A DNA stretch of 35,433 nt from Methanobrevibacter sp. (GTDB lineage: Archaea > Methanobacteriota > Methanobacteria > Methanobacteriales > Methanobacteriaceae). Each line of letters opens with the position of its first letter. Within the stretch, counting starts at the first letter, position 1. The stretch covers positions 1-35,433 of the forward strand of contig NZ_JAFUHT010000012.1 of assembly GCF_017468685.1 (NCBI RefSeq), given 5' to 3'. Made by a program: the position numbers and the translations under genes. Shown here piece by piece: positions 25,839 through 27,569 of the stretch. Below the pieces are notes generated by a model. That model was not told the origin of the DNA, ran no database searches, and saw nothing but the letters and a program-made list of their open reading frames with translations.

Positions 25839-25948
25839 TGCCGGGGGCGGGATTCGAACCCGCGATCTCACGGTATCCCAGGAATAAGCTAGAGCACTGC
25901 TTTATTACCCTATGAGCCGTGCGCTCTAACCAGCTGAGCCACCCCGGC
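25839..25948 (-). tRNA. tRNA-Met(CAT), intron-containing
   Basis: The minus strand folds as a tRNA: acceptor GCCGGGG/CCCCGGC with A73, D arm GCTC/GAGC, anticodon stem CACGG/CCGTG, T arm GCGGG/CCCGC with TTCGAAT. The anticodon CAT is at 25912-25914. A 36-base intron (25875-25910) interrupts the anticodon loop after position 37. At its ends a canonical bulge-helix-bulge can form: CTCA of the exon pairs with TGGG of the intron, flanked by 3-base bulges TAG and ATA. Removing it leaves 74 bases. CCA is not encoded. An intron at 37/38 of elongator tRNA-Met is common in archaea, and the ordinary acceptor stem supports elongator rather than initiator. Confidence 0.95.
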
Positions 25949-26048
25949 ATCTAACAAATATATATATTTTAATCATTACATTTAAAGTTTTTGTTTTTTA
26001 GGGATTTATTGGTGATGAATTTTAATTTGAGAAAAAATTAATTTGTAA
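25949..26048. other. tRNA upstream region
   Basis: A+T-rich; TATATATA at about 25960-25967 lies a suitable distance upstream of the tRNA 5' end and probably serves as its TATA box. Nothing else is visible. Confidence 0.4.
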
Positions 26049-26267
26049 TTATAGCAATTTTTTAATTTTTCGATTATATCTATCGGATTCGATTTGGAAT
26101 TTTCTTTGTAATTCTCTTCTTCTTGCATTTCTTTTTGCTTTTTTTAACCTATTTTCTAGGGTGGGCATTTTTTCTAATTCTTTCTGTCTTCTAACTTTTT
26201 TTGCTTCTTCAGGTGTTATTCCAAAAGTAATAGTATTTATTTTTCTTGTTTTTTTATTTATAAACAT
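26049..26267 (-). CDS. Small basic hypothetical protein
   Basis: I do not recognise this 72-residue protein. It is very rich in Lys and Arg, with a run KRNARRRELQRK, and probably forms one long helix after a short N-terminal strand. It has no Cys, no membrane segment and no known motif. The high charge suggests nucleic-acid or ribosome binding, but that is only inference. The ATG follows AAAGGGG at a normal distance, which favours a real gene. It lies 44 bases downstream of the split hydrolase on the same strand and may share its transcript. Confidence 0.6.
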   Translation of the reverse strand: MFINKKTRKINTITFGITPEEAKKVRRQKELEKMPTLENRLKKAKRNARRRELQRKFQIESDRYNRKIKKLL

Positions 26268-26311
26268 ATTTTTTCCCCTTTCTTGTTTAATATTAATTTT
26301 TATAATAATTA

Positions 26312-26848
26312 TTAATATATTTTTTCTGTACCATTTTTTAAGGATAATACAAGGAGTGTAACATTCCCACCAACTGTTTCTCTTTCGGAGGATATGATTT
26401 GTTTTAATCTGGTTATATCTATCAATGTTTTTGACATTTTAATTAATTCCTCTTTTGACATTCCATCTAATTCTTCAGAAATTCTTTTGAAATTATCAAT
26501 TTTTCGATTTTTTAGGGCATCTTCTAATTCATATTTTATAATTGAATTAGTTTTTAGTGAGTTAATTTCATTCGAGATATTTTCATATTGGCTTTTATTC
26601 AATATTTTCGTTTCTTTTATATTTTTTTGCAACTGTTTTAATGCTTTTTCATTATATTCTGCAATACTATCAGATATTTCATATTGTAAATCTTCATCAA
26701 TTCCATTCAAAAATCCTTCAATTACTTGATTTTGAGCGAATATCTTGATTTTACTCCCATTTACATTGATATCTTCATCAATATCTTCAAATATAACTTT
26801 TTCTTTTGTATTTAAAATCATTTCAAATTGAATGTATAATCCTTTCAT
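26312..26848 (-). CDS. C-terminal half of split proteasome-like protein
   Basis: This is the open frame downstream of the shift. Its first ATG (26846-26848) gives 178 residues, but the frame is open back to about 26911 and the upstream residues (SGIVISGIDKKTMKGLY) look like genuine protein. Residues about 30-50 carry KIFAQNQVIEGFLNGID, and the middle is a charged helical region. The end ERETVGG then alternating hydrophobics resembles a final strand. No ribosome binding site of note precedes the ATG, so independent expression is doubtful. It is best read as part of the 26312-27411 gene. Confidence 0.5.
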   Translation of the reverse strand: MKGLYIQFEMILNTKEKVIFEDIDEDINVNGSKIKIFAQNQVIEGFLNGIDEDLQYEISDSIAEYNEKALKQLQKNIKETKILNKSQYENISNEINSLKTNSIIKYELEDALKNRKIDNFKRISEELDGMSKEELIKMSKTLIDITRLKQIISSERETVGGNVTLLVLSLKNGTEKIY

Positions 26849-26895
26849 CGTTTTTTTGTCTATTCCTGATATTACGATTCCACTTCTGTTATCAT

Positions 26896-27411
26896 TTAGA
26901 TTTTCAAAAAAACATATTCTAAATTGTTGTTCAGTAGTTCCAATTCTTTTTTTGTTAAATTATTGGGAAGTATATCTTCAAATGTTAAACTTACATTTTC
27001 AAATTCTTTGATTTTTTGAATTTTTTCTTTTTCTAAGGTAATCTTTTTTAAATTGATATTGTCTAAATCATTTTTTATTTCCAATTTGAATTGTTTTAAT
27101 TCTTCATTAAGGTATTTTTCTATCTTTTGACTTTTTAAACTCTTATTAATAAAATTTAGTAAATCTTTCTTTACTTTTACTACAGTATCTATTTTTTTAA
27201 AGTCAGTTTTTTTCTTATATTCGCTTATAATATTTTCAAGAGGGATATTACAAAATTCAGAATTTCCATAAATCATAATGCTTATTGGAGGATCATTTGA
27301 TAACTCATGTATTTTTTCTATTCCTCCATATATTCTATTTTCTAATGTAACTGCATCATCAGCAGCCAATACAATTAATGTAGCAGTAATAATCAATATT
27401 AAACATGTCAT
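26896..27411 (-). CDS. N-terminal half of split proteasome-like protein
   Basis: This frame gives 171 residues from ATG 27409-27411, which has AAAGGTG nine bases upstream; an in-frame GTG at 27420 is inside that ribosome binding site. The second residue is Thr, which Met-aminopeptidase would expose as a possible N-terminal nucleophile. Residues 3-17 are hydrophobic, so a signal peptide is the main alternative reading. After the hydrolase-like N-terminus comes a Lys-rich helical region. The frame stops 10 codons or fewer after the T7 run with an atypical ending (VFLKI). Confidence 0.55.
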   Translation of the reverse strand: MTCLILIITATLIVLAADDAVTLENRIYGGIEKIHELSNDPPISIMIYGNSEFCNIPLENIISEYKKKTDFKKIDTVVKVKKDLLNFINKSLKSQKIEKYLNEELKQFKLEIKNDLDNINLKKITLEKEKIQKIKEFENVSLTFEDILPNNLTKKELELLNNNLEYVFLKI

Positions 27412-27471
27412 TATTTTCACCTTTCTGATTTGTAGTATTACTATTGTCCTACTTATTAATACTATTATGTG

Positions 27472-27499
27472 AAGTGCGATTTTTCATATAGTCGCACTT
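27472..27499. promoter_or_regulatory. Inverted repeat upstream of ahcY
   Basis: AAGTGCGA (27472-27479) and TCGCACTT (27492-27499) are perfect 8-base arms around 12 A+T-rich bases. G+C content stands out from the surroundings. The ahcY TATA-like TTATATTTAAT (27509-27519) lies ten bases downstream, so this could be an activator or repressor site. It also lies upstream of the split hydrolase. Confidence 0.5.
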
Positions 27500-27569
27500 T
27501 GAAAAAAGTTATATTTAATAACATTCAAGTCCTAAAATTAATTATTACTAAATTTTTAATGATGATATT

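Follow-up and report, generated by a model that had tools for sequence, protein, structure and literature searches.

An interrupted proteasome-family hydrolase gene and its short partner gene in Methanobrevibacter: a probable two-gene accessory module

The locus described here can be read, with a probability of roughly 0.7, as a two-gene accessory module composed of: (i) a gene for a PMI-type hydrolase of the proteasome family, most like PMI-4; and (ii) a short partner gene that comes directly after it. The copy present in the window (i.e., the whole stretch of 35,433 nucleotides under analysis) is interrupted. The small partner gene appears to be previously unreported, and the hydrolase gene almost always precedes one across bacteria, archaea and their viruses. 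The coordinates of the features discussed below are given in Table 1.

Table 1. Features of the two-gene module in the window
Feature	Position	Strand	Description	Basis or comparison
Whole inserted module	26045..27501		Two genes; borders approximate within ~40 bases	Empty sites in relatives
Small partner gene	26049..26267	minus	Small basic protein of 72 residues, directly downstream of the hydrolase	Clusters with small proteins of G035 and G024
Hydrolase gene, 3' part	26312..26905	minus	Other frame; ends at stop 26314-26312	
Hydrolase gene, 5' part	26896..27411	minus	From the Met-Thr start to a premature stop (26898-26896) past the frame break	
T7 run	26906..26912	minus	Site of the frame break, one base short of an open frame	Absent from intact orthologs
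Lys32 codon	27313..27315	minus	Equivalent to Lys33 of proteasome beta	Invariant in 69 relatives
Asp17 codon	27358..27360	minus	Mature numbering	Invariant in 69 relatives
Thr1 codon	27406..27408	minus	Predicted catalytic nucleophile once Met is removed	Thr 154 / Ser 4 of 158 relatives
Start codon	27411-27409	minus	ATG of the hydrolase	
AAAGGTG	27418..27424	minus	Ribosome-binding-site-like, upstream of the ATG	Sequence itself

The two parts of the hydrolase gene lie in different frames of the same strand and, as the first-pass annotation had claimed, they can be joined by a single base. When one T is added at the T7 run, a single protein of 366 residues is obtained, the second frame being open from 26912-26906 onwards. 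Residues 1-366 of this joined protein match the intact gene of another Methanobrevibacter genome (45% identity, E = 3.8e-85) and, in consequence, the two frames belong together and do not face each other by chance. The stretch between the two listed open reading frames (26849-26905) had been taken for normal protein in the second frame, and it does read as such: its translation, ENLNDNRSGIVISGIDKKT, can be aligned with homologs, which end at neither of the two halves. The proposed Met-Thr start, with AAAGGTG ahead of it, was found in its place, and intact hydrolase copies have ribosome-binding-site-like motifs too. Regarding the T7 run, the window contains 21 runs of this kind, and one T7 by itself is unremarkable.

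The residues Thr1, Asp17 and Lys32 of the mature protein stand at the positions previously assigned to them. Threonine after the initial methionine is invariant in 11 members of the genus, as are the Asp and the Lys that correspond to Asp17 and Lys33 of proteasome beta. Residue 1 was also compared across 158 relatives belonging to many phyla: 154 have Thr and the other 4 have Ser. Asp17 and Lys33 show no variation in the aligned relatives (69/69). The lysine of the window protein falls at position 32, not at the usual 33, owing to a one-residue loop deletion. When a profile of 13 members was compared with solved chains, archaeal 20S beta was the best match, with coverage of the N-terminal region and of the C-terminal GG-DVAVI-DG strand. 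Structure prediction of a Methanobrevibacter homolog (L054; pLDDT 91.6, pTM 0.87) gave an Ntn alpha-beta-beta-alpha sandwich, and not a signal peptide plus helices; the fold is read from this homolog, not from the frame-broken window protein. The model has two long helical insertions (helices 78-160 and 257-334), and its top matches in a Foldseek search of the PDB were 20S beta subunits and Anbu. On the strength of these residues and of the modelled fold, the protein of the interrupted window gene is a genuine N-terminal-Thr hydrolase of the proteasome family.

No model of Pfam, NCBIfam or PADLOC reached its cut-off with the hydrolase. The matches to HslV and 20S proteasome beta were weak (E of ~0.006 to 0.06) and stayed below the curated cut-offs, and the PADLOC defence protein models gave no meaningful match. 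The active site, the fold and these sub-cut-off scores agree with the earlier proposal of a poorly described proteasome-like family distinct from both HslV and the 20S proteasome; the host of this member is a Methanobrevibacter. Membership of HslV or of the 20S proteasome is ruled out by model scores and fold details. Connectase membership is ruled out as well by the L054 model, in which helices follow strand 6 and the large insertions lie elsewhere.

As far as the closest known systems are concerned, 22 new proteasome homologs were described by Fuchs, Alva and Lupas in 2021 (PMC8665760). In that description, PMI-4 lacks a propeptide, carries insertions after H1/H2 and between H3/H4 and, alone among the PMI types, is listed in phages (PMC8665760). 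The hydrolase resembles PMI-4 in: (i) its proteasome fold, catalytic residues and lack of a propeptide; (ii) its long helical insertions after H1/H2 and between H3/H4 (L054 model versus the text of PMC8665760); and (iii) its occurrence in phages, many bacterial phyla and Euryarchaeota. On the other hand, PMC8665760 mentions neither a small partner gene nor a context of insertion, satellites or plasmids, and it reports that genomic context suggestive of function was not found for the new homologs. Matched on described features, the hydrolase is probably of a PMI type and most like PMI-4; PMI-3, with helical insertions after H1/H2 and between H3/H4 as in PMI-4 (PMC8665760), is also a possible match.

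The phage form corresponds to PHROG 5990, annotated as being of unknown function and not named proteasome-like; its phage members match over their full length, with E values down to 6.8e-152, and the Methanobrevibacter members match at 1e-71 to 1e-78. With 20S beta, HslV and Anbu the hydrolase shares Thr1, Asp17, Lys33 and the Ntn sandwich, its best sequence and fold matches being 20S beta and Anbu. But while those proteins have ~200-240 residues, members of the hydrolase family have ~366-440; they also carry two large helical insertions, lack a propeptide and have no gene for an AAA+ partner close by, and their profile scores stay below the curated cut-offs. Connectase (MJ0548-type) is likewise a proteasome-family enzyme of methanogens with an N-terminal Thr; it lacks the H1/H2 pair and has an insertion between strands 3 and 4 (PMC8665760), whereas in the hydrolase the H1/H2 pair is present and the insertions are found elsewhere. 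A search of the literature returned the 2021 description and no functional study, known enzymatic activity or defence phenotype.

A downstream gene was counted as a partner when it was on the same strand, had 40-85 codons and started between -30 and +60 of the hydrolase stop. Such a gene follows the hydrolase at 100 of 112 non-redundant loci, as compared to 136 of the 652 other genes at the same loci that were used as controls (21%; p = 4e-45). These short downstream genes have a median length of 61 codons. Half of the small proteins from public loci (52/104) fall into one linked cluster that spans bacteria and archaea, whose outer members are less certain due to single linkage; those outside the main cluster are mostly too diverged to align. 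A core of 20 members displays the pattern Y-x-S-x-x-E-x-x-x-x-[YF][FL]P[KE] ... DP-x-x-x-G-x-x-LA-x-x-SL, and aromatic-Pro motifs (YFPK, FFPE, FNP) are present in 36 of the 104 small proteins, against 3.6 expected from shuffles. No known family in the family libraries matches the small protein. The small genes are under purifying selection, with dN much lower than dS in each of four groups of close relatives, which indicates that these genes encode real proteins. Similarity among small proteins is correlated with similarity among hydrolases (Mantel r = 0.36, permutation maximum 0.13), as expected for genes travelling together. Because isolated small proteins were misplaced when aligned with hydrolases, folding was limited to chains in which hydrolase and small protein are joined by in-frame read-through; in them, the small part was predicted with low confidence and no confident placement. 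At one locus (L247, G065:C17), a single hydrolase appears to be followed by two similar small partner genes in a row, separated by a masked stretch.

The borders of the module can be drawn by comparison with relatives, at least 10 of which run directly from the equivalent of window ~26000-26044 to that of ~27502-27541. On one side of the module are a tRNA and an aldo-keto reductase gene and, on the other, the ahcY promoter. Since relatives without the module join these flanks directly, it must correspond to a clean insertion of ~1.46 kb with just two genes. Terminal or direct repeats marking a transposon were sought in the AT-rich stretch around the module, and none was convincing. Adjoining the insertion, on the minus strand (25839-25949), an intron-containing tRNA-Met (CAT) was recognized by eye; ARAGORN, run with default settings, reported none.

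Related Methanobrevibacter genomes, whose comparison the first-pass annotation had recommended, do contain intact orthologs: in two other species (G035 and G063), the module is intact and in the same place. This shared synteny indicates that the full-length hydrolase is ancestral. Between the window and G035, identity amounts to 84, 92 and 98% for flanking genes, 45% for the hydrolase and 25% for the small protein. Where unsaturated, the dS of the hydrolase resembles the ahcY value, but its dN is far higher (~0.45 versus 0.02-0.03), a combination suggestive of orthologs whose protein sequence has changed very fast. On either side of the break dN/dS is ~0.3 to 0.4 where dS is unsaturated, i.e., both parts are under similar constraint; a ratio of ~0.3 shows constraint, not positive selection.

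Relatives of the hydrolase were located in at least 434 stretches of species genomes and at least 157 stretches of viral contigs, both figures being lower bounds obtained with one or two short motifs. The window protein itself, used to scan the viral contigs, gave no match, and a scan with the cross-domain alignment found relatives. The hydrolase is carried by 10 plasmids and by 13 phage records, including Streptococcus satellites in which the pair is found at the element end. In E. coli, 9 of 5,426 genomes have the pair in a prophage, where it is flanked by Q and a methyltransferase gene and runs opposite to the phage genes. Of the strains E. coli H3 and FCI54 (L255 and L256), one has the hydrolase pair in this Q-methyltransferase slot and the other an unrelated pair of genes (88 and 247 residues), the latter with no clear PADLOC match. 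In Methanobrevibacter, the family occurs in 23 of 67 genomes. The orientation of the module relative to its neighbours is near random in genomes, as for a free-standing unit. When 150 neighbouring proteins were tested for a defence island, AbiE, restriction-modification and candidate systems were found as scattered hits only, hence they lend no strong support to such an island. On a plasmid of Rhizobium sp. T1473, a member (L047) is separated by a few genes from a cluster of multiubiquitin, ThiF and Clp-protease genes, with no sign of a fixed association elsewhere.

Several explanations can be put forward for the broken frame of the window copy. Among the 67 Methanobrevibacter genomes, 21 copies are uninterrupted and full-length and ~11 are interrupted. 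The breaks are at differing sites, five of them in single-base runs (T7, A9, an A run and two C4); the others are nonsense codons, truncations and deletions. A search of this type showed an uninterrupted ahcY at 43 of 44 places and an uninterrupted aldo-keto reductase gene at 38 of 39. With about a third of the genus copies broken and the control genes intact, gene loss is the likeliest explanation, and the window copy has probably lost its function recently; as the controls are under stronger selection, the comparison counters a general assembly problem but does not prove the loss of this particular copy. That sequencing or assembly introduced the break, with the organism itself having an intact gene, is rather unlikely. 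The genome is a draft of 94 contigs, the change affects one base of a homopolymer, both halves are open and equally constrained, and five breaks of the genus lie in single-base runs. All of this is compatible with an error, but the controls of the same genomes are almost never broken (not a decisive argument, given the selection on them), and the nonsense codons or truncations of other copies are not run errors. Those same breaks in single-base runs could be ascribed to slipped-strand phase variation, in which the run would switch the gene off and on in the population; this is improbable, for the runs are at different sites and no longer than the genomic background (as the T7 runs of the window illustrate), and nonsense codons and deletions occur too. 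As to the first-pass annotation, the gene is indeed interrupted as it claimed, but its suggestion of T-TTT-TTG as a -1 slippery site did not hold. The heptamer agrees with the X-XXY-YYZ pattern and the second frame is open throughout, as required for a programmed ribosomal frameshift to yield the full-length protein; nevertheless, intact orthologs lack the heptamer and need no shift, other copies are broken elsewhere and the RNA downstream shows no excess of structure over shuffles (z = -0.53), all of which makes such a frameshift very improbable.

The genome of the window (G000) contains ~8 further copies or fragments of the family (contigs C9, C10, C13, C20, C73, C81 and C93), many at contig ends and most of them broken. 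One of them (L038, C81) has a hydrolase truncated after ~120 residues, with the apparent start of a transposase-type protein immediately behind it. At three Methanobrevibacter loci (L026, G013:C126; L027, G000:C73; L245, G074:C17), ATT-ACA replaces ATG-ACA, and each of these apparent ATT starts has a good ribosome-binding site ahead of it.

With respect to function, established enzymology suggests that methionine aminopeptidase would expose Thr1, there being no propeptide, and that Thr1, with Lys33 and Asp17, would cleave or transfer a peptide bond. The small protein may be a dedicated regulator, adaptor or substrate of the enzyme and, at lower confidence, the pair might serve in the conflict between mobile elements and their hosts, for instance as prophage-encoded immunity; the two proposals together make a tentative reading. 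Slightly more tentative is a broader one, namely a widespread and unreported two-gene immunity or conflict system, carried by phages, satellites, plasmids, bacteria and methanogens; in it, a proteasome-type threonine peptidase would be controlled by, or act on, a co-encoded protein of ~60 residues. The pair could also be imagined as a toxin-antitoxin-like addiction unit, a harmful hydrolase being restrained by a short, mostly disordered protein. The shortness of the co-encoded partner, carriage by mobile elements, the presence of several copies in one genome and the frequent decay of the hydrolase would suit this idea. On the other side, the frame of the small gene has stayed open in the broken window copy and the gene persists in several broken copies, a fact compatible with an addiction unit but not diagnostic; besides, no toxicity is known and a regulator gene is absent, so an addiction unit seems unlikely. 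It is equally doubtful that the hydrolase is a specific protease or ligase with the small protein as its substrate. Connectase, a relative within the proteasome family, is a specific protein ligase of methanogens (PMC8665760), and the recurring aromatic-Pro motif could be a recognition site; but the patchy presence of the family in Methanobrevibacter argues against a housekeeping substrate, and many lineages lack the motif.

In any case, the 2021 work showed that the proteasome family holds many uncharacterised members without a context hinting at function. For one of the larger uncharacterised groups, a near-universal partner, a clean insertion, phage and satellite carriage and fast evolution now provide a testable hypothesis, and the minimal unit for cloning consists of two genes in under 1.5 kb. 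Hydrolase and small gene, considered jointly, suggest a mobile two-gene unit.
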